Origin: Anaerobaca lacustris
GTDB taxonomy: Bacteria; Planctomycetota; Phycisphaerae; Sedimentisphaerales; Anaerobacaceae
Length of the DNA stretch: 64,000 nucleotides
Direction of reading: 5' to 3'
Assembly: GCF_030012215.1 (NCBI RefSeq)
Contig: NZ_JASCXX010000026.1
Location: 1 to 64,000 of the forward strand
Shown here in pieces: positions 11,595 through 26,206 of the stretch (positions are counted from its first letter, which is position 1; each line of letters opens with the position of its first letter). The notes beneath the pieces were generated by a model. It did not search any database and was not told the DNA's origin. It was given only the letters and a program-made list of their open reading frames with translations. A program made the translations under genes and the position numbers.

Positions 11595-12272
11595 TTATTT
11601 GTTTCGGCGCTTCCGCGCCAGGGCCAGGCCGCCGAAGGCGAGCAGTGCGACGGTTGTGGGCTCGGGGACCGACATGGCCCCGCTGAATCCGCCGCTGCCG
11701 ATGTAGCCGTCGTTGAGCATCTGGGCGAAGCTGTAGTAGCCTGGGCCACTTCCACCTTGAAGCGATAGTTCAAAATCGAGCGAGGGTAGCTGCAAGTTCT
11801 GGAGGATGGCCAGCGCCGCCGATCCCAGCGCTGCGCCTTCGTGCGTGATGAAGAGGTTGGTGATGTCCACCTGGAACTGCGTGAACCCACCGGCAACGGT
11901 GCCCATGGTGACGAGGTCACCTCGGCCCAGCGTGCCGGTCAGGTACGTGACGCTGTTGTCGGCGCTCTTGATGACGATTTCCGAGCTGCCCAGCGGGGTC
12001 AGTGTATACGGCGAATCCGGTATGCCTGTGACCTCGAAGGTCGGCAGGTAGACGCGGGCGCCGACCAGGGCGTCGTAGTTGCTGCTCAGGCCGGAGTTGA
12101 TGATGATGTCCTGGTCGAAACTGAGCACGCCGGCGCCGTTGTAGTACCATTCGCCTGCCCCGGTGGGCGCCGGGCTGAATTCCAGCACCTGCTGCGGCGG
12201 GATGGTGCCGCCGAGTGCGGGAACGGCCACGAGCACAGCGAGCATGGCAATGGGCGTCAAGAGTGCTTTCAT
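11595..12272 (-). CDS. PEP-CTERM exported protein
   Basis: 225 residues starting at the ATG at 12272, with AAAGGAG five bases upstream. Signal peptide MKALLTPIAMLAVLVAVPALG. The C-terminus is a textbook exosortase sorting tail: VPEPTT, a hydrophobic helix, then ARKRRNK. The body is predicted to be beta-rich, with no recognised catalytic motif. PEP-CTERM proteins are expected to be processed by an exosortase (EpsH/XrtA type) and sent to the envelope or exopolysaccharide matrix; no exosortase gene lies in this window. It follows another PEP-CTERM gene by 41 bases, so the pair is probably one operon. Confidence 0.85.
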   Translation of the reverse strand: MKALLTPIAMLAVLVAVPALGGTIPPQQVLEFSPAPTGAGEWYYNGAGVLSFDQDIIINSGLSSNYDALVGARVYLPTFEVTGIPDSPYTLTPLGSSEIVIKSADNSVTYLTGTLGRGDLVTMGTVAGGFTQFQVDITNLFITHEGAALGSAALAILQNLQLPSLDFELSLQGGSGPGYYSFAQMLNDGYIGSGGFSGAMSVPEPTTVALLAFGGLALARKRRNK

Positions 12273-12313
12273 CGTTTCTCCTTTGTTGTCGCCGCGCTTC
12301 ATTGCTTGCGTTC

Positions 12314-13069
12314 TCACGTGGTTGCTCTGCGTCTGCGGCGAAGCAGGGCAAACGACCCGCCCAATCCGAGCAGAACGAGGGTCGCCGGCTCGGGCACCTC
12401 GATGAGGTAGTTCTGGTTGCCGTTGTGCGTGATCACAAGCAGGTCCGCCTTGGCCCCGCCGCCGGTCAGCTCGTGCAGCCACTTGTTGGCGGTTGCCACA
12501 TCGAGGTTGCCGGCAGCGAAGCCGCCGTAGCCGGGCGTGCCGTCTACGGTGACATCCCAACCGGCGGGCGTGTCCGGCAGCTTCTCGTAGATGATCTCCC
12601 ACACCGCCGCGGCAAAGACGGCGGCCATGCTGTTCTGCTGTTCGGTGTAGGGACCGCCGCTGGCCCAGGCCGGATCGTAATGCTTGGCCCACAGCTCGCG
12701 GAGGTAGTTGCCCTTGGCGGTGCCGAGGATCTCGCCGGTATAACTGTTGTACACGTCGTCGGGCATGCCCACATCGTATGTCACGGTCGTCTGCGGCGCC
12801 GGCTCGTGCAACTCGATGCAGAAACCGGGAATCCAGCCGTTGGACCAGGTGTCGCCGATGCCGGTGCTGTTGGTCTTATGGAGCATGTACACGCCGGCGG
12901 CCACGACGTCCCCTGCGTATCCGCCGCCCGTGAAGATGATACTGTCGTAGGCGCCGAAGCCGTCGTGCACAGCATCCACCGTGTCGGCCCGCAGCAGCGG
13001 TGCGGTCGAGAACAGCAGGGCCGCGATAAGGACTGCCAGCAGATGTCTTGATGCGTTCACGGGTCTCAT
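12314..13069 (-). CDS. PEP-CTERM exported protein, possible thioester-domain relative
   Basis: 251 residues with a signal peptide (LLAVLIAALLFSTAPLLRAD) and a C-terminal PEP-CTERM tail (VPEPATLVLLGLGG, then RRRRR). The body contains PGFCIELHE and, later, AAVFAAAVWEIIYE. These resemble the Cys segment and the 'QLAIWEIVYE' segment of thioester-like envelope proteins, but the Gln expected in the second motif appears to be Ala here, so an internal thioester is unlikely. It is the upstream gene of a two-gene leftward group. The ribosome-binding site is weak (GGTAGGGTGAC before the ATG). Confidence 0.8.
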   Translation of the reverse strand: MRPVNASRHLLAVLIAALLFSTAPLLRADTVDAVHDGFGAYDSIIFTGGGYAGDVVAAGVYMLHKTNSTGIGDTWSNGWIPGFCIELHEPAPQTTVTYDVGMPDDVYNSYTGEILGTAKGNYLRELWAKHYDPAWASGGPYTEQQNSMAAVFAAAVWEIIYEKLPDTPAGWDVTVDGTPGYGGFAAGNLDVATANKWLHELTGGGAKADLLVITHNGNQNYLIEVPEPATLVLLGLGGSFALLRRRRRATT

Positions 13070-14108: not shown

Positions 14109-14642
14109 ATGGCAGGCGTGGGAAATCAAACCGTATTGGCTCTCCTCTTACTGGGCGTTGTGCTGTATCCGGGCTGCTCGCGACAGGCCCGGGCGCCTGC
14201 ACGACGGGCGGATCGTCTGGTCTGGACGGCACCCGACTGGGGTCCGCAGACCGACGGTGTGCAGTGCCGGCTGCGTCCCACCAAGCGGCTCTGGCAAACC
14301 GGCGAGACGCCGACCTTCAAGCTCGATCTGCGCAATCAGGGCAAGCGTCTGTTTGCGTTCGATGCGTGCGAGCCGATTCAACCCGATCGCGTCGCGGTCG
14401 ACGGCCGCTGGTATTACCGACGGCGAGATGAGACGCGCCAGGCGAAGGTCCGCCCGCTGGCGCCCGGCGTTGAACTTGCCGATCTGGTGCTGATTGTCCC
14501 CGCGTCGATGGCGTTGCCGCTCGGCCCGGGTCGTCATACGATCCAGATCGCACTGGACCTCGAAGACCTCACTGTGCTGAGCAACCCGGTCGGTATCGAG
14601 ATCGCCGATCCACCCGCAAGAGACGCGGCCGGCGACGGATAG
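14109..14642 (+). CDS. Small putative lipoprotein of unknown function
   Basis: 177 residues. The ATG at 14109 has AGGAG six bases upstream and begins a signal sequence ending in LYPGCSRQ, a weak but plausible lipobox. The mature part is beta-rich: QCRLRPTKRLWQTGETPTFKL looks like an Ig-like or intracellular-proteinase-inhibitor type strand pattern. The family was not recognised with confidence. It converges on the CxxCH propeller gene with only about 46 bases between the stops, and has its own good promoter. Confidence 0.65.
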   Translation: MAGVGNQTVLALLLLGVVLYPGCSRQARAPARRADRLVWTAPDWGPQTDGVQCRLRPTKRLWQTGETPTFKLDLRNQGKRLFAFDACEPIQPDRVAVDGRWYYRRRDETRQAKVRPLAPGVELADLVLIVPASMALPLGPGRHTIQIALDLEDLTVLSNPVGIEIADPPARDAAGDG

Positions 14643-14688
14643 CGGCACGGGGTTTCCGCCGGGGCAGGCCTCGAAATCCATCTCTCGA

Positions 14689-16242
14689 TTACTGCACGCT
14701 TGACCGGCCCACCGGGTAGGCTTGCGTGTCGCCGGTCTTGGGTGTTGCGCCCGTGATCGAATTGACGACGCTGACGCTCGTGGGGCTGACGACCGCTTCG
14801 AGCAAGGCTGCGCTGTCCACCGTCACGGGTCCGGCGATCAACTCCGGCACACTATAGACATGGTAGCAGGATGCATAGGAAGACGGACGCCTTTGGGGCA
14901 AGACAAAGGGTTTGCAGGTCTTTCCGCCTTCGTCCACGTAGCTGATGAACGGCCGCGTGAACAGGCCTCCCTGTCGTTTGCTGCTGAATACGATCCACCG
15001 GCTGTTGCTCGACCAACTGTGCCAGGACTCGGCATAGTCGCTGTTGGTGGAGGTCTTCCAGTACGTGCCGCTGCTGAGGTCCATCATGTACAGGTCGCTG
15101 GTGGGCTGATACACCGGGAAGCAGCCGTACCGGCTCATGCAGAACAGCAGAAATCGGCCGTCGGGTGAGACGCGAGGCAACAGGATGCTCAGGCCGGTGT
15201 CCTTGGCGCTCAGCACCGTCTCCAACGCGCCCCAGGTGTCCGTCTCGACGTCGTAGCCGATTCGCATCAGGTCGTATTGCACCTCGTCGTATCGCCTGGG
15301 CGGCACCGTCTCCATATCGGTCCATAACAGCGGTGCGCTGCAGAAGTAGAGATACCTGCCCTCCGGCGTCCAGGCGGGATAGGTCTCCAGCCGCGCCTTG
15401 TCCGACAGGGCCGGGGTCGTCCTGGTCTCGTTCTTCTCGACGTCGTGATAGACGATGAGCGAGTCGAGGTCCACGACGTCGTGGATCTCCTTCTGGGCCG
15501 TGTGAAAGAACTGCCTGACGTCGTTGATGGAATAGGTGACGATCCGGCCGCTCGGGTGCCATGCGGTGTACCCGAACTTGGCGCCGATCTTCTCGACGCG
15601 GCCATCATGGGCATAGACGGTGGCGCTGGGAAACGTAGTGCTGCGAATCCCGATCAGCATCCGGTCGGGACGGTTGCCTGCGAAGCTGTGGCAATTGGCG
15701 CAGCCGTTCCCATAGGAGCGGGTGTCGAGCAGGACTTCCTCGTCGAAGCTCTCGATATTTCGCTGGCGGATCTGCATCGGTTTGGGAAAGTACGACGAAG
15801 GCGTCATGAAGCGGTAGACCAGATGCGAATCAATCGTCTCTTCCGCGATCCTATTCGTGATGGTCTCGTACCGGTTCCATTGGCCGTCCTCGGTCTTCAC
15901 ATAAACGTCGACTGAAAGCTCCCCGCCGGCATTCGCGGCCAGCAGATCCTTCCATCTCTTCTCAGGGATAACGATTTCCCCCGTCCTGGTGACGACTTCG
16001 GTCGGTTCTCCGGAGGCCGAATAGATTTTCACCACATATCTTTCGCCGGGCTCGTCGATTGTGAAATTCAACGGGGCCACGTTCGGCGGGATGACGATGC
16101 CCGCATAGTCCGGCGTGATCCTGGGCCGTCGCGCCACCGCCACGGGCGATTCGGGGCCCTCGTTGTCGCACGAGCCCACGAGCACCGCCGTCGCGAGGGT
16201 CGATAGGACAAGAAAGGTTGTCAGCAATCCATGCAGCTTCAT
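14689..16242 (-). CDS. CxxCH lipoprotein with TolB-like beta-propeller
   Basis: 517 residues. The signal peptide ends in a lipobox (AVLVGSC), so an envelope lipoprotein is expected. A region of about 150 residues precedes NGCANCHSFAG, a single CxxCH c-type heme-attachment motif. The rest (about 200-480) consists of PD40/TolB-like propeller repeats such as AWHPSGRIVTYS, AWTPEGRYLYFCS, RVSPDGRFLLFCM and SWSSNSRWIVFSS. The arrangement suggests an extracytoplasmic heme-bearing sensor, binding or electron-transfer protein; whether heme is attached is unproven. It is the last gene of the four-gene operon with three arylsulfotransferase-family genes, 57 bases after the nearest one. Confidence 0.75.
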   Translation of the reverse strand: MKLHGLLTTFLVLSTLATAVLVGSCDNEGPESPVAVARRPRITPDYAGIVIPPNVAPLNFTIDEPGERYVVKIYSASGEPTEVVTRTGEIVIPEKRWKDLLAANAGGELSVDVYVKTEDGQWNRYETITNRIAEETIDSHLVYRFMTPSSYFPKPMQIRQRNIESFDEEVLLDTRSYGNGCANCHSFAGNRPDRMLIGIRSTTFPSATVYAHDGRVEKIGAKFGYTAWHPSGRIVTYSINDVRQFFHTAQKEIHDVVDLDSLIVYHDVEKNETRTTPALSDKARLETYPAWTPEGRYLYFCSAPLLWTDMETVPPRRYDEVQYDLMRIGYDVETDTWGALETVLSAKDTGLSILLPRVSPDGRFLLFCMSRYGCFPVYQPTSDLYMMDLSSGTYWKTSTNSDYAESWHSWSSNSRWIVFSSKRQGGLFTRPFISYVDEGGKTCKPFVLPQRRPSSYASCYHVYSVPELIAGPVTVDSAALLEAVVSPTSVSVVNSITGATPKTGDTQAYPVGRSSVQ

Positions 16243-16299
16243 TCCGACGTATCCACGCTCATTGCGCTTCTTTGCCGCGCGCCTCTTTCTTTCCGAATG

Positions 16300-18633
16300 T
16301 CAATGGGCCAGTCGAACCAGCGACAGGTTGTCGAGATACACGTCTGCGGTATCGGCGCCCACATTCACCTCGATGCATGCGTCCAGATCGGTCTGCCCGT
16401 CCATCACGAAGGTATGAGTGAAATGCTTCATGATCAGGCTCTGGCGCGATGTGGGCAGATACACGGGCCCCATCTTACTGTAGTCCCAGAAGGAGCCAAC
16501 GTTTTTCTTGTTGACCTTGATCTCGATCAGCCGGGGCGTCATGGCTCCTGCCTGGAATTCCAGAGCATAGGTTTCTCCCCGAACCAGCTTGAGGCCGCCC
16601 TGCACCAGCCGGATGCTCTGGGTGTCATATCCTCCGGCTTGGATCGCCACACGGGCCCGCCCGTCCTCAACGTCCCATTCCGCCTCGGCGGAACTGCTGT
16701 GGCTCAGCGTCCATTCCGTTCGGCCCTGGGAGAAATCCCCGTTGCGGATCATGTTCTCTCCCGGCTCGTTGGGGTCGTACAGATAGGCGACGATGCTCTC
16801 TTCGTTGGAGAACGCGCTTTCGTTGCCGCCGACGTCCACCGCTGTTACCCGAAAGTAGTACCGGCGGTCGTTCTCCAGATCCCGCAGGTGCAGCAGGGTC
16901 TGCGCAGTGGTTGCGATCAAGGTCTCCGGCTCAGGATCGAGACCTCCGTATACGCGATAATAGGCCGTATTCAGATCGCCGAACTTGTTGAACAGCAGCG
17001 TCATCTTGTCGAAATTCGGCTCGACGACCAGATAGGGCTCTTCCACCACGCCCGTCCACGGGAAACGGAAGATGCGGTAGGCCCCGCCTTCTCTGTTGAC
17101 GAAATCCATCTCGAACTCGATCTGGCCGTCTGCATTCACCTCCGTCACCTTGGGATACTCGGCCAGGACGAAGTTGATCAGGGTATTGCCGTTGGGCAGA
17201 CGCTGGGCGTTGCCTTGGTGGTACGTGTACCGGTCGGGAGCCGCGCGATATTCCCACACCAGGGTGGCGGTCATTGCGTTCGGATCGAGTTCGTATTCCA
17301 CCGCCCGCGAGACCGGAGGATCGTGGTTGTTGCCGTTGTCGAACAGGGTGTAGCGACCAGGACCTACGACGCGGATGTCGTGCTGGGCCCAGAAGCCGTT
17401 CAACGGATCGTTCACAAAGGAAAAGTCGCTGTCAGGTCCGCCGAGCCGCCAGAGGACCTCTCCGGTTCGACGATGGATCTTGGTCACCTCGCTGAGGTGG
17501 CGGCTCGAAACGAGGATATGCCCGTCCTCGTCGACATCGATGGCGTTCAGGTGCGCGACGCGCACGCTGGGACTGCGCACGTCTTCGACGTGTGCCGGTC
17601 CGATGCCGGCTACGTGGAAATTCTCCCAGGAGCGCCACTGGAAGATCAATTCATCGGCGGCGGTGAACTCCTGGATGCAGGTTTCGTGGACGACCGCGTT
17701 GGGATGGCCGCCTTCGACGACCCGGCCCATATCGACGTTGCGGATCACCCGCAGACCCAACAGCAGGTAGCTTCCATCTTCGAGAACGAGCAGTTCGTGG
17801 CTGTCGGTCTCATATCCGTTGGTAGCACGGAAGTCCTTGACCCATTTGAAGTTCTGATCGTACCCCTTGTGTTGGGTCTCGGTGATCATGCCGTTTCTCT
17901 GGACCTTCAGATCGTGGGCGGCCTTGCCCCTTCGATACCAGACCGGAGCGCCCCCGTTGTCCAGGATCAGGGCGCACTGCGGGATCTGGTTGTACTCGAT
18001 GAAGATGTATCCCTCGGCGGGATTGCGGTTCGTGGTGATGCTCACATGGGGAAAGTCGCTCGGCACCGAGACCCCGTTGGCCATGATGACGGGCCGGCCC
18101 GGAACAGGCTCGGATGGCGCAAGGGCCGGGACGATCGTCCGCTCTGCGGCGTTCAGAGCCACGGAACGGTTCACATTGCTTGTCGTCGGTGTCGCCGGAC
18201 GCAGGACGTAGAATCGATAGGCGATCGGCTCGATCGGTGCAGCGGGAAACCAACTGCCCAGGGGGACCAGGCTGACGTCCACCGCCTCGCCGGCAACGAA
18301 GGACGCCGCCGGCTGGAAGACCACCGTCCGGCCGTCCGTGGCGACGGTCGTCGTGCCCGAATGAAGGCCGCTCTTTTCGCCGACGACCTGGACGAAGCTC
18401 GACAGATTGGCCAGGTCCGCCGGTGACGTGTTCTCAAACCGGATCAGGAGCCGGGTCTGCGGCGCGACGTATTCCGATTCCGGACGCGGATCGAGATACT
18501 GGTAGCCGTATCGGCAGACAGCGGCATGATCCGTTACAACGGCAGACTGCCCCATTCGGCAGGCAACCAGAACGCTCAGCATTGCGATTGCCAGACAAGA
18601 TCGGCTGATGATTGTGTCGCCAGTGTGTATCAT
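16300..18633 (-). CDS. Arylsulfotransferase (ASST) family protein with CBM-like C-terminus
   Basis: 777 residues, exported (possible lipobox LSVLVAC). Modules by eye: SbsA/Big_5-like Ig about 50-145, ASST-type propeller about 160-530, fibronectin III about 545-610, and a CBM4/9-like jelly roll about 625-777 (MIRNGDFSQGRTEW start). ASST motifs include DSHELLVLEDGSYLLLG, HLNAIDVDEDGHILVSSR, GEVLWRLGG, WAQHD, LFDNGN and QRLPNGNTLINF. His361 and Arg378 sit where the catalytic His/Arg pair of the E. coli enzyme should lie. ASSTs move sulfate from phenolic sulfates; the acceptor here is unknown. Its ATG overlaps the preceding ASST stop by four bases (ATGA), implying translational coupling. Confidence 0.8.
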   Translation of the reverse strand: MIHTGDTIISRSCLAIAMLSVLVACRMGQSAVVTDHAAVCRYGYQYLDPRPESEYVAPQTRLLIRFENTSPADLANLSSFVQVVGEKSGLHSGTTTVATDGRTVVFQPAASFVAGEAVDVSLVPLGSWFPAAPIEPIAYRFYVLRPATPTTSNVNRSVALNAAERTIVPALAPSEPVPGRPVIMANGVSVPSDFPHVSITTNRNPAEGYIFIEYNQIPQCALILDNGGAPVWYRRGKAAHDLKVQRNGMITETQHKGYDQNFKWVKDFRATNGYETDSHELLVLEDGSYLLLGLRVIRNVDMGRVVEGGHPNAVVHETCIQEFTAADELIFQWRSWENFHVAGIGPAHVEDVRSPSVRVAHLNAIDVDEDGHILVSSRHLSEVTKIHRRTGEVLWRLGGPDSDFSFVNDPLNGFWAQHDIRVVGPGRYTLFDNGNNHDPPVSRAVEYELDPNAMTATLVWEYRAAPDRYTYHQGNAQRLPNGNTLINFVLAEYPKVTEVNADGQIEFEMDFVNREGGAYRIFRFPWTGVVEEPYLVVEPNFDKMTLLFNKFGDLNTAYYRVYGGLDPEPETLIATTAQTLLHLRDLENDRRYYFRVTAVDVGGNESAFSNEESIVAYLYDPNEPGENMIRNGDFSQGRTEWTLSHSSSAEAEWDVEDGRARVAIQAGGYDTQSIRLVQGGLKLVRGETYALEFQAGAMTPRLIEIKVNKKNVGSFWDYSKMGPVYLPTSRQSLIMKHFTHTFVMDGQTDLDACIEVNVGADTADVYLDNLSLVRLAH

Positions 18634-20777
18634 TTGATCGAGAACGTTGCGTCGCTCCGGTCCCGGATCGTTTCGTCAACGGCACTTGTGACCTGGATCG
18701 CGTAGTCGTCGCCCGGGTCCACAGCCAGATCGGCCTCCCATTCGTAGGCCCCGATGCTGGGGGTCTTGGCGATCGTCTCGACGAATGCGTCGCCCTTGTA
18801 GAGTTCGATCACTACGTCTTCCGACAGATTGTCGTCCCACCGAATGAAGTAGGTCAGGCCGCGTTGCCATTGCTCGCCGCCGTTGGGCGTTTGGACCTGA
18901 ATCATCGGTGCGGCGGTCGTGAAGGACTGGGTGGCCCATTCGCCGGTCCCACCATAGTTGCTCGTATTCACCCGCCAGTAATAGGTCGTCGCCGGCGCCA
19001 CGTTGTCAACGGTATAGCGAGTCTCCGTCAGGCCGGCGGCATCCACCACCACGTCGCCAAACTCGGCATCCGTAGCCACCTGGAGGTGGAACGATCGGGC
19101 GAAGCCTCTTGATGTCCACTCCAATGTAACAGGCTGCGCCTGATTGACCGTGGCAAGATCTTGCGGGGCATACAGGATGGGTCGGAGCGGAATCTCCGGC
19201 GCATCGGGATATGTGAAGATGAACTCGCCCAGTGGTGCGTCGGCCACGATGAGCTGCCCGGCGGCGGAATCGTAGCGTGTCGCCAATGGGCCAAACACGC
19301 CCCGACCGACGCAGGAGCGATGATAGACGGTCAACTGCGTCGGATCGTCGAAGTCGATGCGTTGAACGTCGAAGCCCACGTCAGCCGTTATGGCATCGAT
19401 GCCGAACCCCGACAGCGTCACGCGCTCGACCAGCACCTGGGGGGGCTTGCCGGCAAATCGCGGAAACCGCGTCGCCTCGGCGTGCCTCTTGGCCACCAGT
19501 CCGTTGTACGCCGGACCGTCCAGGCTGTTGACGGTGACCGTAACGCCCGTTTCGTCTGAATCGTATATGCCGCCTCGCCCGATTCCGAAGTGTGTCTGCG
19601 ACTGAACCAGGTCGGGACTGTTCCACACGTACTTCTGGAGGCGGGCGCCCTTGGTTGCTGTGGCGTAGTGCAGCTCATACACCAGCTCGCCGGTCGCGGA
19701 GACTTCGGTGGCGAGGGGCACTTCCGGCGTGCCGAGCGGTATGGCCCTGCCCCAGTCGATGAGGACATTGCCGTTGCCCAGGGGTTGAACGCGGCCGCCA
19801 CTGGGCGACATAATGTCCGGGTCGTGACGGTATTGCCACACCAGCGTTGCCGTCATGTTGGTCTCGTCGAGATGATATTCCACGGCCCGGCTGTAATCCC
19901 GATCGCTTTCGGTGAGCCCGCCTCCGGAGATGTTCCCGTTGTCGAAGAGCAGAAGGTTGCCGTTGCGGAATCGCCAGACCGCATGCTGGCCCACGAAGTA
20001 GTATGGCGCGTTCTCTTCGTGCTCGCCGATGAAGGTGAAATCGTTGCCTCTGCCGCCAAGTCGCCAGAGGATTTCCCCGGTGCTCCGACTGACCTTCACA
20101 ATGTCGGACGTCGTTCGGAAACAGAGCAGCAACGTATTGTCGAGCGGGTCCAGATTCACGGAATTGATATGGGCATAGTCGATGTTCTTCTGCGTCAGAT
20201 CATAAAAGGAATCGGCGATCGGGATATGGTCCAGGGCGTGCCATTCAAACACAACGTTCTTGTTGGCGTCGATTTCCTGGATGACGTTCCCGGTGATCCG
20301 AGCGTCCGGCCGGCCGCCGGGGACGATCCGACTCATATCGATATGACGCTGATACGTTCCCATCAGAAGGGCGTGGCCGTTGGGCAACAGCTTGAAATCG
20401 TGGATGTCCACATTGTAGCCCTCGCTCAACTGGAAGGAATCGACCGTCGTGAACGTTTCGTCCTTGAGAGCGAAGCCGCGCACGGCCGGCGCCGAAATCA
20501 GCCCGCTGGGCGTCACGCCGGGATAGCTCATGGCATCCGTCTTGCTGTAAAACAGGGGATAGCCGGACTGGTCCAGAACCACGTAGTAATCGACCACCCA
20601 CCACCCCAGCCACCCAATGAAGACACCGGGGGCCGTTTCGCCGTACTGTGTGGCGACAAGCTCCGGAAAATCGTCGGGCAAGCCGGGTGTCGTAGCGGCG
20701 GCCTGGACGACGACGACGCCGAAACATGCCGTCAGGAGCACGGCAAGCATGATTCGCTTGCTGGTCAACATCATCAT
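18630..20777 (-). CDS. Arylsulfotransferase (ASST) family protein, KNH-like C-terminus
   Basis: 715 residues with a signal peptide (LAVLLTACFGVVVVQA). The ASST-type propeller is about 35-400, with IHDFKLLPNGHALLMG, AHINSVNLDPLDNTLLLCFR, EILWRLGG, VGQHA, LFDNGN and QPLGNGNVLIDWG. The candidate active-site pair His203/Arg221 is intact. After a linker come a fibronectin-like module (about 530-620) and a Ser/Thr-rich KNH-like module (about 625-715, starting VQTPNGGEQWQRG). Middle gene of the tandem trio; it starts 73 bases after the preceding paralog's stop and overlaps the next gene by four bases. Sulfotransferase activity is inferred from family only. Confidence 0.8.
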   Translation of the reverse strand: MMMLTSKRIMLAVLLTACFGVVVVQAAATTPGLPDDFPELVATQYGETAPGVFIGWLGWWVVDYYVVLDQSGYPLFYSKTDAMSYPGVTPSGLISAPAVRGFALKDETFTTVDSFQLSEGYNVDIHDFKLLPNGHALLMGTYQRHIDMSRIVPGGRPDARITGNVIQEIDANKNVVFEWHALDHIPIADSFYDLTQKNIDYAHINSVNLDPLDNTLLLCFRTTSDIVKVSRSTGEILWRLGGRGNDFTFIGEHEENAPYYFVGQHAVWRFRNGNLLLFDNGNISGGGLTESDRDYSRAVEYHLDETNMTATLVWQYRHDPDIMSPSGGRVQPLGNGNVLIDWGRAIPLGTPEVPLATEVSATGELVYELHYATATKGARLQKYVWNSPDLVQSQTHFGIGRGGIYDSDETGVTVTVNSLDGPAYNGLVAKRHAEATRFPRFAGKPPQVLVERVTLSGFGIDAITADVGFDVQRIDFDDPTQLTVYHRSCVGRGVFGPLATRYDSAAGQLIVADAPLGEFIFTYPDAPEIPLRPILYAPQDLATVNQAQPVTLEWTSRGFARSFHLQVATDAEFGDVVVDAAGLTETRYTVDNVAPATTYYWRVNTSNYGGTGEWATQSFTTAAPMIQVQTPNGGEQWQRGLTYFIRWDDNLSEDVVIELYKGDAFVETIAKTPSIGAYEWEADLAVDPGDDYAIQVTSAVDETIRDRSDATFSIK

Positions 20778-20850
20778 ATCCCTTCACTCCCAAGAATAGA
20801 ATAGGACCGGGTTGGATATACTCCCGCCCCTGATGAACGGCCTCGGTCGC

Positions 20851-23067
20851 TCACTCTACTGTGAATGTGCCGTCGCTTGTGTCGGCCAGGGTCCCATCCA
20901 CGGTGCTCACGATCCGGATCGTGTAATCGTCACCCGGTTCCAGGTTCAGGCCCACTTCCCATGCGTATGCTCCGTCGCTGGGCGCCACGCCGATGCTCTG
21001 GACAAGCACGTGGTCCTTGTACAACTCGATCTCCACGTCCTCGTCGAGATTGTCCGTCCATCGGACGAAGTACTCCAGGCCGCGAGACAGGGTTTCACCG
21101 CCGTTCGGCGCGACCAGTTGGATCGCAGGCTCGACCGTGGCGAACGACCCATAGGACCACTCCCCTACGCCCCCATGGTTGTAGGTGTTCACGCGCCAAT
21201 GATACACCGTGTCGCGTTCGACCGTCTCCAAGACGTAGCGCGCCTCCACGAGGCTGTCGTCATCGACGTCCAGAACCGCGAAGTCCGGATCGCGCGATAC
21301 CTGGAGATGGTAGAAACGAGCGAATCCGGCCGGACTCCAGGACAGCGAGACGGGCAGAGTCTGATTGACCGTGTAGTCCCGGTCGGCCCGAAGGGATTCG
21401 GGGTGGTTGGCCATGAAGTCCATCACCCGGAGACTCTGGGGCTCGTGAAGCAGCGGTGCAAACGGCACATCGGCGACGTCCGGGTAGCCCAGGACGAATT
21501 CGCCGACTCCGCTCACGAGCGCTCTGACGCGCTGCGTGGCCGGGTTGTAGGTCGTCGCCAGGGGCAGGAACAAGCCGGAATCGGGGTACCGCCGATAGTA
21601 CACCGTCAGGGCCTCGGGCTCGGCAAAGTCCAGACTGCTGGCGTCAAATGCGATCTCCGCGCTGATGCTCAGGATGCCGTGTTGCGAGACCGTGAAGCGC
21701 AGCGGAAGCAGGCGCGGGGCTTTGCCGGGGAACTCCGGGTACAGCGGCGAGAACGGCATGCGTTGCACCGTCACCTCGTTGTATCCATCGCCGGTTCGGT
21801 CGATCACCTTGATCGTGACGCCGGTGTCGCCTCCATCGTCGGCGAACACATACGTGTTGCCCGTGGCCAGTTCATATTCGGTGACCTCGATGCCCCGGAC
21901 GTGTCCGGGGAAGGGCAGCCGGAAGGCGCGGTAGCTTTCCACTTCGGGGTTGTCGAAGTACAGCTCGAAGACGATCCGGCCGTCGGCCGTCACTTCCGAA
22001 CAGGTGGGGATCGGCTTGCCGCTGGCCCCGCCCCAGCCGATGAAGGTATTGCCGTTGGGCAAACGCTGCGCGTTGCCGCGATGCCACGCGGGGATCGGCG
22101 TCTGTGGGACGAAGGACCACACATGCTCGGCGATTCGGTTCTCCTCGTCCAGGCGGTATTCGTGGACGGACGACGACGTGGTGCCCTGACGGTTGCCGTT
22201 GTTGTAGATCAGGACGTTGCCGTTGGCGATGCGACCAAAGGCATGACCTCCGAAGTGGCTCGCGTCGGCCCCGTCGCCGACCAGGGTGAATTCGTTCTCG
22301 TCGCCGCCCAGGTGATAGACGATCTGCCCGGTCTGACGGTCGATCTTCTTGACCCAGGACGGCGTCGCCAGGAAGAAGCTGCCGTCGGTGTCCATCTCGA
22401 TCGTGTTCAGATGAAATGCGCTGACCGTCTTGTTCGTGGCCCGGCGGAACGCAAAGTCGGCGAAGTCGTAGTGGTCCCAGCTTCGCCATTGAAAGATGAC
22501 GTTGCGGTCCGCATCCAGTTCCTGAACGACGCCGCCGGAGACCTGGGCTGCGGGATGGCCGCCCTGAACGATCCGGCTCATGTCCACCTGGCTCATGTAA
22601 TAGCCGAACACCAGGGCCTGGCCGTTGGGCAGCAGTTGGAAGTCGTGGGCCTCGGCGATGTAGCCGTTGCCCATCCGGATTTCTTCCACGATGTCCAGGT
22701 TATGGTCCAACAACACCCAGACGCAGTGGCCGCCACCGATAAAGGAGTGGTGATGGATGAATTGGGCGTAGCTGAGCAGGCCGTTGGGCTGCACCTTGAA
22801 ATCGTAGGCGTAATCGTCCGGCAGTTCCCTGTAGGCGTAAGGAATGCCGTCGTTGTCGAGGACCATCAGATAGTAGCCCACGCCCTGGACCTCGGTCGCC
22901 ACCGCCAGGAAGATATACCCGTCCGCCAGGGCGTTAGCGTCATACACATGGGCTGTGAGCGATGGGAAATTGTGAGGCAGTGCGTTCTGGGTGTTGAGTT
23001 CGTCCGCCCAACCGGCTGAACTGCACAGCAGCCAGAGCAGTAGGGCTACACGCATTGTCCTTCTCAT
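20851..23067 (-). CDS. Arylsulfotransferase (ASST) family protein lacking the active-site Arg
   Basis: 738 residues from the ATG at 23067, which has GGAGGAG five bases upstream and starts the signal peptide MRRTMRVALLLWLLCSSAGW. It has an ASST-type propeller (about 30-430), a fibronectin-like module (about 560-645) and a KNH-like C-terminal module (VAPNGGETLSRGLEYFVRW onward). The shared HLN motif is present (His219), but the stretch that holds Arg in both paralogs reads FFLATPSW (Pro236/Ser237), so the putative catalytic Arg is missing. The WRLGG motif is also changed to YHLGG. It may be a binding or regulatory member. First gene of the operon, behind a perfect -10 box. Confidence 0.78.
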   Translation of the reverse strand: MRRTMRVALLLWLLCSSAGWADELNTQNALPHNFPSLTAHVYDANALADGYIFLAVATEVQGVGYYLMVLDNDGIPYAYRELPDDYAYDFKVQPNGLLSYAQFIHHHSFIGGGHCVWVLLDHNLDIVEEIRMGNGYIAEAHDFQLLPNGQALVFGYYMSQVDMSRIVQGGHPAAQVSGGVVQELDADRNVIFQWRSWDHYDFADFAFRRATNKTVSAFHLNTIEMDTDGSFFLATPSWVKKIDRQTGQIVYHLGGDENEFTLVGDGADASHFGGHAFGRIANGNVLIYNNGNRQGTTSSSVHEYRLDEENRIAEHVWSFVPQTPIPAWHRGNAQRLPNGNTFIGWGGASGKPIPTCSEVTADGRIVFELYFDNPEVESYRAFRLPFPGHVRGIEVTEYELATGNTYVFADDGGDTGVTIKVIDRTGDGYNEVTVQRMPFSPLYPEFPGKAPRLLPLRFTVSQHGILSISAEIAFDASSLDFAEPEALTVYYRRYPDSGLFLPLATTYNPATQRVRALVSGVGEFVLGYPDVADVPFAPLLHEPQSLRVMDFMANHPESLRADRDYTVNQTLPVSLSWSPAGFARFYHLQVSRDPDFAVLDVDDDSLVEARYVLETVERDTVYHWRVNTYNHGGVGEWSYGSFATVEPAIQLVAPNGGETLSRGLEYFVRWTDNLDEDVEIELYKDHVLVQSIGVAPSDGAYAWEVGLNLEPGDDYTIRIVSTVDGTLADTSDGTFTVE

Positions 23068-23128: not shown

Positions 23129-23294
23129 CACAAAAATGGGGCCGATCGGACGGCAAAAACACGAGAATGCCCCGGCAACCGGGCATGATGCGCTCCAAAC
23201 GGAGCCGCGCAGCGCCGATGCAGGGGACGCGGATCATTCTGGACGACCTCGATTGCCGTACACTATATTCGATACAATTGTGCCAATCGGCAGG

Positions 23295-25232
23295 ATGCGT
23301 TCGGATGTTGACAGATGCAGCGAAGAAGGCGCGGATTTGAGAAACGACAACCGCATAAGAAGGGGCGATGAGAACCGGGCGGATCGCCTGAGATGGGAGA
23401 GGTGGCTGTGGGCAGGTCTCTTCCTGGGGCTGTTCGTCTACGTCTGGATGGGAATTCGGCCCCAGTGGCTGCATTCTGGATTCGGTGTATTCGTGGCTTA
23501 TCCGGTCTTCTCCTGGGAGAGCGCGTTCCTGCGATCCGCGCTGAGCGTTCCCGGCGGGCCGCTCAACGCGCTGGCTGCGCTGCTGGCGCAGACGTATCGC
23601 AGCCCATCGCTGGGGGCCCTGGCGATTGTCGCGGTGTCGGGTGTGCTCTTCGGTGGCGTATTGTGCCTGCTGCGTTCGATGCGGGCCGCCAGGCTCAGAG
23701 ACCTCGCCTGGGTCCCTGCCATCGTCGCGTCGATGATCTACAGCCGCTACGACGATCCGCTGCCGGCGCTGCTGGCCCTGGGCCTGTCGATCTGGATGGC
23801 GGTTCTGTACCAGGTGGTTCCAATGAGGACCCTGCCGGTGCAAGCAGGTGTGTTCGGGGTCCTGTTCGCGCTGGCCTACTGGTGGGCCGGAGCGGCGGCC
23901 TTCGTCTTCGCCGGCGTCGTCTGCCTGATCGAGGCCTTGCAGCATCGAAAGACTTTGGCGGCGATCGTCCAGGTCGTCCTCGCCGGCGGCGCGGCGATCG
24001 TCCTGGGCCGATTCATCTTCGGTCTTGAACCGCGGGCGATCTACAGCGTCGGCACTCTATGGGATTCGAGCGGCCGCTTTGAGTTCGCGGCCTTCTCACA
24101 TTCGCTGATCGTCGTTCTCTATGCCTTCGTCCCGGCTCTGGTTCTGACGGTCTCCCTGGGTCGCGTTCTCGCCGGCGTTCAGCGTAGGTCGTGCGTCCCC
24201 GCACGACAAGGCGAGCGGGGACGCTCGCCCTACCTGCTGTGGACCGTGGCGCGCGTGCTCGCAGTGATTGTGACGACGGCCGTGTGTCTGATGGTTTCAC
24301 GCAATCACCTTCGTGACGAGCGGGCGCTACACCATTACGCACAGCAGAGGGACTGGGAGCAGGTCGTCGCCCTGGCCCATCGCATGCGTGGCAAGCGCCC
24401 CTTCACTCGCTCCGGCGTCTTCGATACCAACCGCGCGCTGGCGCACCTGGGTCGGCTGGGCGATGAGCTGTGCGCCTATCCTCAGGACGAGACACGGACG
24501 CTGTTCTTGGGTTTCGACGCCATGTTCGGGCGATTTCAGCACGCCAAGCTGCTGGAGTTGTACCTTGACCTGGGCTGCCCGAACGCGGCCGAGAAGAATG
24601 CCTATGAACTACTCGACAACGAAGGACCGTCCCCGTACGTGCTGGAGGCGATGGTCCGAATCCATCTGGCCAAGGGCCGGCACGAGTCGGCCCGGATCGC
24701 CTTCGAGGCTCTGCGGAAGTACGCCGGCAGCGGGCGGTACATCCGCCAATGGCAGGACGTTATCACCGATCCCGCCAAGGCCGACAGCCATCCGCTGGTT
24801 CGGGCCTGGCGCCGGGCGCAGGCGACAACGGACCACGCCGTGGCCGGGATCGCCTTCGAGCCGCTGCTCCGGCGGCTGCTGCACGATACGCCGGACCACC
24901 GACTGGCATTCGAATACCTCATGGCGCACTTCCTGCTCAAGCATCAGCGGGCCGCGATTGTGAGCGGCCTGCCTCTGCTGGCGCCACTGGGTTACACGCG
25001 GCTTCCGCACCACTATGCCGAAGCCGTGCTCGTCCATTCGCTCGAGACCAAGGCCCCGCCGGATATGCGAGGATGGACGATCGACCCGGAGGTGAACGAT
25101 CGGTTCCGTCAGATCCGGGCCGCGGTGCAGAACGCACGCGGCGACAACCAGGCCGTCTTCGACACGCTGGCCGCCCGGTACGGCGACACGTACACCTTCT
25201 ATAGCCTCTTCAACGTCTGTGGCGTCAGGTGA
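23295..25232 (+). CDS. DUF6057-family membrane protein
   Basis: About 645 residues. The N-terminal half (about 30-330) has roughly eight hydrophobic segments, starting LWAGLFLGLFVYVWMGIR. The C-terminal 300 residues are soluble and helical, with TPR-like pairs (for example ELYLDLGCPNAAEKNAYELL and LAKGRHESARIAFEAL). I recognise the DUF6057 architecture; function is unknown. The start is uncertain: ATG 23295 has only a weak site, and TTG 23336 follows an AAGG. It is divergent from the ASST operon. Residues near 298-314 are encoded by a palindromic repeat (24184-24233), an in-frame insertion between the membrane segments. Confidence 0.7.
   Translation: MRSDVDRCSEEGADLRNDNRIRRGDENRADRLRWERWLWAGLFLGLFVYVWMGIRPQWLHSGFGVFVAYPVFSWESAFLRSALSVPGGPLNALAALLAQTYRSPSLGALAIVAVSGVLFGGVLCLLRSMRAARLRDLAWVPAIVASMIYSRYDDPLPALLALGLSIWMAVLYQVVPMRTLPVQAGVFGVLFALAYWWAGAAAFVFAGVVCLIEALQHRKTLAAIVQVVLAGGAAIVLGRFIFGLEPRAIYSVGTLWDSSGRFEFAAFSHSLIVVLYAFVPALVLTVSLGRVLAGVQRRSCVPARQGERGRSPYLLWTVARVLAVIVTTAVCLMVSRNHLRDERALHHYAQQRDWEQVVALAHRMRGKRPFTRSGVFDTNRALAHLGRLGDELCAYPQDETRTLFLGFDAMFGRFQHAKLLELYLDLGCPNAAEKNAYELLDNEGPSPYVLEAMVRIHLAKGRHESARIAFEALRKYAGSGRYIRQWQDVITDPAKADSHPLVRAWRRAQATTDHAVAGIAFEPLLRRLLHDTPDHRLAFEYLMAHFLLKHQRAAIVSGLPLLAPLGYTRLPHHYAEAVLVHSLETKAPPDMRGWTIDPEVNDRFRQIRAAVQNARGDNQAVFDTLAARYGDTYTFYSLFNVCGVR
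24184..24233. repeat. Compound palindromic repeat inside a coding sequence
   Basis: Two adjacent hairpins, GTCGTGCG-TCCC-CGCACGAC (24188-24207) and GGCGAGC-GGGGAC-GCTCGCC (24210-24229), flanked by GTAGG/CCTAC ends. The loops (TCCC and GGGG) can also pair. It lies in frame inside the DUF6057 gene and encodes an Arg-rich loop. The GTAGG ends resemble the shorter palindromes at 33302, 34881, 37096 and 42225. Confidence 0.7.
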
Positions 25233-25573
25233 ATCCTCTCGTCTCACTTTCTGTGGGGCGGCGGTTCCCCTTACGCCAAAAAAACTTCGCGTCTTTCTGC
25301 TTCAAGGTCTTGTAATATCTCCGCATTCAAGCTCCAGGGGAACAGGGAGGAGAGAATCTGTGGCTGTCCGACAGTGATGTTTGCCCTGGCCTATGCCGTT
25401 TTGATACAATAGCGAAAGTCGAAGAGGACGACGCCTGCTCTTGGGGGGCAGAATCATCCACAGGAGGTTGCTCGGCGGAGCGTGTCATTCGCCCTGTCCG
25501 GTCGTGGCCCGTGGAGTGATCCGAACAAACAAACCAATTCGTTTCGCAACGAAGCATCATGGGGGTGAACACG
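25233..25573. other. Intergenic region with leader of PEP-CTERM gene
   Basis: 341 bases between two rightward genes. It contains the candidate promoter at 25381-25410 and a leader of about 155 bases. No RNA motif was recognised. Confidence 0.4.
25381..25410 (+). promoter_or_regulatory. Candidate promoter for PEP-CTERM gene
   Basis: TTGCCC (25381-25386), an 18-base spacer, and TACAAT (25405-25410). The predicted leader is long. Confidence 0.3.
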
Positions 25574-26206
25574 ATGAAAAGACTGATCCTTGTCGCTATC
25601 GTATGTGCCTGTGCCAACTCGGCGGTTCTGGCGGGCGTGACGGGCTTGTATGACACGGGCACCGCCGGGATCGGCAACGCCGACCCATACTATATGCTGA
25701 CCTCCGTGCCGAGCGGTGCCTCCACCGCCATCGGCATCGAGGCCCATCCCGCCTGGGTCGCCGCGCCGACCGGTTCGCTCTGGATCGGACCGACGACTTC
25801 CAGCGTGACCGATCCGGTGGGCTGGTACCACTATGAGCTGGACTTCAACATCGAGGACGTCATCTTGTCCAGTGTGGTCGTCACGGGCAAGTGGAGCGTC
25901 GATAACTCCGGCGAGATCTGGCTCAACGGCGTCTACGCGGGCATCGCCAAGGGCAACACGAGCAGTGACACGCGGGAGTACCTGACCCTCGATGACTTCA
26001 CGCTCACCACCGGCTTCCAGGACGGGTTGAATACCCTGGAGTTCCGCGTGTACAACATCGCCGGTGGCGGCGGCGGCAATCCCACGGCGCTGCTGGTCAG
26101 CGATCTGGCCGCCACGGCGACAGTCGTTCCCGCCCCCGGGGCGGTCCTGCTCGGCTCGCTCGGAGTAGGCCTGGCCGGCTGGATGAAACGACGCCGAATG
26201 CTGTAA
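25574..26206 (+). CDS. PEP-CTERM exported protein (VPAPG variant)
   Basis: 210 residues with a signal peptide (MKRLILVAIVCACANSAVLA) and a C-terminal sorting tail VPAPGAVLLGSLGVGLAG followed by KRRR, the VPAPG variant of PEP-CTERM. The body is beta-rich, with a jelly-roll-like segment around WSVDNSGEIWLNGVYAG similar to modules that bind sugars or sit at cell surfaces. No catalytic motif was seen. A strong rho-independent terminator follows, so it is monocistronic. The ATG at 25574 is preferred to the one at 25559 because GGGGGTGA lies just upstream. Confidence 0.8.
   Translation: MKRLILVAIVCACANSAVLAGVTGLYDTGTAGIGNADPYYMLTSVPSGASTAIGIEAHPAWVAAPTGSLWIGPTTSSVTDPVGWYHYELDFNIEDVILSSVVVTGKWSVDNSGEIWLNGVYAGIAKGNTSSDTREYLTLDDFTLTTGFQDGLNTLEFRVYNIAGGGGGNPTALLVSDLAATATVVPAPGAVLLGSLGVGLAGWMKRRRML

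Follow-up and report, generated by a model that had tools for sequence, protein, structure and literature searches.

An optional arylsulfotransferase-family cassette at the junction of a DUF6057/heme-motif propeller gene pair in Anaerobaca lacustris

In this study, we show that three arylsulfotransferase (ASST) family genes of the planctomycete Anaerobaca lacustris (Phycisphaerae), here called B, C and D, make up a facultative cassette lying in the junction between two divergent genes, U and A. The window analysed is a 64,000-nucleotide stretch of DNA (contig NZ_JASCXX010000026.1, positions 1 to 64,000). We favour, with a probability of roughly 0.6, a reading of this locus as two modules. One would be a widespread pair consisting of U, with membrane helices and a TPR-like half, and A, an exported propeller with a c-heme motif; the other would be a set of exported ASST-family propellers forming an optional cassette, with B and C as putative transferases and D as a presumed non-catalytic member. 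Since the cassette sits in the divergent U|A junction, D, C, B and A read as a single leftward operon, and the pairing of A with U together with the facultative nature of the cassette suggests that an apparent four-gene machine consists of two joined modules. Little is understood about what ASSTs do physiologically (PMC13426309). Of the new elements at this locus, the degenerate D type is the one of greatest interest, and the planctomycete tandem-ASST clade, with its glycan-binding modules and recurrent degenerate partner, offers concrete proteins for asking about ASST complexes and their action on glycans.

Architecture of the locus

Gene A (14689..16242, minus strand) encodes a 517-aa predicted lipoprotein with a TolB-like beta-propeller (PD40) and a conserved CxxCH, the single c-heme motif. 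It is preceded by B (16300..18633, minus strand), a 777-aa ASST with a C-terminal CBM4_9 module and all five of the compared AssT active-site positions; C (18630..20777, minus strand), a 715-aa ASST with fn3 and KNH-like domains in which these positions are likewise complete; and D (20851..23067, minus strand), a 738-aa ASST-like protein with fn3 and KNH domains, which lacks the equivalent of Arg374 and the Gln before His436. Divergent from D lies U (23136..25232, plus strand), encoding a DUF6057 membrane protein with a TPR-like C-terminal half. The four open reading frames A to D were all found and are intact; D and C are separated by 73 bp and B and A by 57 bp, and C and B overlap by 4 nt (ATGA).

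The initial annotation had described a leftward row of three paralogous ASST genes with different C-terminal modules, two of them joined by an ATGA overlap, and a heme-motif propeller lipoprotein at the end, and this description was borne out. Pfam ASST domains above the curated cut-off were found in B (Arylsulfotrans 2.5e-26, with CBM_4_9 1.1e-8), C (Arylsulfotrans 1.9e-34, with fn3 and Kre9_KNH 1e-7) and D (Arylsulfotran_2 1.6e-16 and Arylsulfotrans 1.5e-11, with fn3 and Kre9_KNH 2.6e-5), and a genome-wide Pfam search returned B, C and D as the only PF05935 genes of this genome. The statement that no sulfatase gene is nearby holds within the window, but about 30 sulfatases are encoded genome-wide, one of them at 77 kb on this contig. 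What the proposed four-gene unit overlooked is the divergent U, the pair partner of A. Several PEP-CTERM proteins are encoded on both sides of the cluster (11595-13069 and 25559-26206), and the pair at 11595-13069 adjoins A in the same-genus genome G002 as well.

The U-A pair

Across the window genome and related genomes, 58 of 60 A homologs have a DUF6057 gene within 10 kb, usually abutting the homolog, which identifies U as the natural partner of A. Among the 60 A homologs, 53 have the DUF6057 gene on the same strand at less than 1 kb, 3 have it divergent at less than 1 kb, and 2 are about 7.3 kb away from it; the last two are those of the window and of genome G005, where the ASST genes lie in between. 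Nearly all A-DUF6057 pairs are without ASSTs. DUF6057 was found in 53 of 89 genomes of the family, with four copies in the window genome, and pairs of DUF6057 with a TolB-like CxxCH propeller are widespread, multi-copy and often overlapping (L072, L073, L077, L101-L103). Larger relatives of A, PD40-TPR proteins of about 820 aa, also occur near DUF6057 genes (L072, 10928-13378; L122, 7991-10459), the L072 protein carrying CGNCH. No paper in the literature searched names DUF6057; the pair now defined is both widespread and unstudied.

U matches PF19529 (DUF6057) at 3e-69 over model positions 37-569 of 569, and its structure model combines membrane helices with a TPR-like half. Its start codon is uncertain, as the model has low confidence over residues 1-65 and the closest homolog has 74 fewer residues. 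The possibility that U is a GT-C glycosyltransferase was rejected, the matches to PglB (E 0.07) and to the yeast oligosaccharyltransferase (Z 9.6) being at noise level for helical proteins.

For A, a PD40 match (6e-14), a lipobox (VGSC, assigned by eye) and the heme motif GCANCH, whose first Cys is residue 181, were found. The CxxCH is present in all close homologs whose reading frame spans the site, including those from Armatimonadetes and a Tannerella MAG; the closest named relative, at 88% identity, is that of 'Phycisphaerales bacterium Planc_01' (G005). A c-type cytochrome assembly gene is present in the window genome. With a conserved CxxCH, a lipobox and a maturation system, A has the sequence features of a c-type cytochrome and is predicted to bind heme. 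Its structure model (pLDDT 85) resembles TolB (Z 27.6 over 279 residues), with similarity of fold only: against the TolB equivalog model of the Tol-Pal system, TIGR02800, A scores 29 bits, below the cut-off of 343. Hydrazine synthase alpha was also considered as a relative (Z 23.9) and set aside; since its heme alpha-I site lies in the middle domain, outside the propeller (PMC12758564), the likeness is read as that of a common propeller fold.

Distribution of the ASST cassette

The comparison covered about 90 MAGs of one family, in which common descent links part of the arrays. ASST genes occupy 3 of the 12 divergent U|A loci that have both genes, as D-C-B in two and D-B in one, and the other 9 have none. 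The order D-C-B-A occurs in the window genome and in G005 only, the latter having U as well and near-full synteny across the window, while G108 (L063) has D-B-A with U and overlapping B and A frames. The same-genus genomes G001 and G002 carry U-A and lack the ASSTs. In G002 the empty site can be read directly, as window segments 14171-16181 and 23411-25232 align contiguously and A and U adjoin. On the U tree the cassette is patchy and at least three changes are required.

Conversely, ASST arrays of the same clade occur away from U and A (G022, G023, G083, G066, G068, G012 and contig C109 of G005), in the orders B-D (G023, G083, G068), B-D-C-B (G066) and B-B-C (G022); the B and C types are also found alone. 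A second type of triple, on G005-C109 (L093, 6602-11622) and in G012 (L089, 2372-8150), has a D-type gene after two intact ASST genes of other types. In G003 (L084, 8280-14997) the B and C genes are kept, A is reduced to an N-terminal piece and U to a C-terminal scrap nearby. Between the window and G005, dS was 0.21-0.25 for B, C and D, 0.54 for U and 0.40 for A. A recent transfer of the cassette between these two genomes was considered and rejected, because the dS of other syntenic genes ranges from 0.07 to 0.92 and the low B, C and D values are not unusual.

Intact and degenerate ASSTs

The active sites were compared by aligning 58 ASST cores, with reference positions taken from E. coli AssT, whose active-site residues are His252, His356, Asn358, Arg374 and the nucleophile His436 (PMC13426309). 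B, C and D together form a clade of their own in the ASST tree, in which each of the three types makes up one side of a branch, with support of 93/81 (B), 100/98 (C) and 100/99 (D). The window copies of B and C keep the equivalents of all five residues, that of His436 being His418 in B and His265 in C. The His252, His356, Asn358 and His436 positions are invariant across the 14 B-type and 7 C-type members of the alignment, and the Arg374 position is Lys in three B-type proteins; the equivalent of AssT Thr501 is, by eye, kept in neither B nor C. B and C are under purifying selection (dN/dS 0.15 each, relative to G005), and the N-termini of B, C and D look, by eye, like signal peptides. The best PDB sequence match for all three (about 1e-28 to 1e-29) is 9kf4/9kf6, deposited as 'Sulfotransferase'. 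B and C are thus probably exported, PAPS-independent sulfuryl transferases. If they follow the AssT ping-pong mechanism, which does without PAPS, an aromatic sulfate would pass its sulfuryl group to the His436 equivalent, with the equivalents of His252, His356, Asn358 and Arg374 holding the group.

With regard to the acceptors, the CBM of B is similar to one found in a laminarinase (1gui, 4e-6), and modules recur in the B type, CBM4_9 being joined in relatives by LamG, PA14 or DUF1349. These modules hint at glycan or glycoside acceptors; they are compatible with glycan substrates and prove nothing. Such acceptors would not be without precedent, since the ASST-type enzyme Cpz4 prefers sugar hydroxyls (PMC13426309), and the sulfatases of the genome make sulfated substrates plausible in the habitat of the host.

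The D type differs. Its clade has 10 members, none of which has an equivalent of Arg374 or the Gln that precedes His436, so the ASST catalytic set is incomplete throughout. Three members have Asn or Ser instead of His436, four have another residue instead of His356, and one instead of His252. These changes indicate that the known catalytic set is not common to the clade. The window copy of D retains a His at each of positions 252, 356 and 436, and a weak or altered activity is therefore possible. A decaying pseudogene is ruled out by the open frame and by purifying selection (dN/dS 0.21 relative to G005). About 30 positions conserved in the D type differ in B and C, such as Tyr288, Pro321 and Asp372. 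The D gene adjoins an intact ASST gene at 9 of 10 loci, the exception being G003, where it lies at the end of a contig. A search of 392 genomes across the phylum gave no strong D-type match outside the family of the window genome, and the literature search returned nothing on point for planctomycete ASSTs or ASST pseudoenzymes.

From the pattern of residues, D is probably a non-catalytic companion paralog of its intact neighbours, for which it may serve as a binding, scaffold or regulatory subunit. A bolder and less likely reading is a partnership of enzyme and pseudoenzyme, in which dead D-type propellers would join intact ASSTs, be they B, C or another type, in mixed complexes and determine the substrate, location or regulation of these enzymes. 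Since adjacency of paralogs is expected under tandem duplication, the pairing of D with ASST genes alone is no proof of a complex.

Alternative explanations

The initial annotation had seen in the four genes a multi-part envelope machine and had named conservation of their order as a check. In such a machine, sulfated glycans or phenols would be the substrates of the three ASSTs, and A would provide redox chemistry. The same strand, the close spacing and the ATGA overlap speak for it, as does the retention of the order in G005 and, as D-B-A with overlapping B and A frames, in G108; beyond these two relatives the order was not retained. The idea does not fit with the presence of A beside DUF6057 at nearly always ASST-free loci, with the U-A pairs of G001 and G002 that have no ASSTs, or with the ASST arrays that have no A, and we consider it very unlikely. 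The division of labour suggested for the three paralogs is supported only in the sense that two of them keep the catalytic set and the third belongs to a type that has lost it.

The remaining alternatives concern the chemistry. It could be argued that B, C and D have moved past sulfotransferase chemistry and are carbohydrate-binding surface propellers whose active-site residues are inherited remnants, as their strong divergence from characterised AssT, their many binding modules and the loss of the active site in the D type would allow. Four catalytic positions are invariant in all the B- and C-type proteins aligned, however, and the same motifs are found in 9kf4/9kf6, an entry deposited under the name 'Sulfotransferase', which makes this an improbable account. 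We also doubt that D is still an enzyme, one whose rebuilt active site serves a different specificity. Purifying selection, the D-type-specific conserved positions and the three His of the window copy would suit such an enzyme, but a clade in which Arg374 is gone from every member, and His436 and His356 from three and four of 10, does not share the known catalytic set. We retain the two-module reading, with D as the probable non-catalytic partner.

Comparison with known systems

A shares with TolB (2hqs) the propeller fold and an N-terminal domain, and differs from it in the CxxCH motif, the lipobox and the DUF6057 partner, at an identity of 16%. B and C resemble AssT of E. coli CFT073 (PDB 3ELQ) in the ASST Pfam domain, in the five catalytic positions and probably in being exported propellers, at a low overall similarity (7e-7 for C, with no match reported for B or D). 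Unlike AssT, the three proteins carry CBM4_9 or fn3 and KNH modules at the C-terminus and occur in tandem arrays; Thr501 is, by eye, not kept in B or C, the locus has no DsbL/DsbI genes next door, and D is in addition without Arg374. The 472-aa protein of 9kf4/9kf6 has the same motifs as B and C, stands apart from B, C and D in having no added carbohydrate or KNH modules, and retains the Arg that is missing from D.
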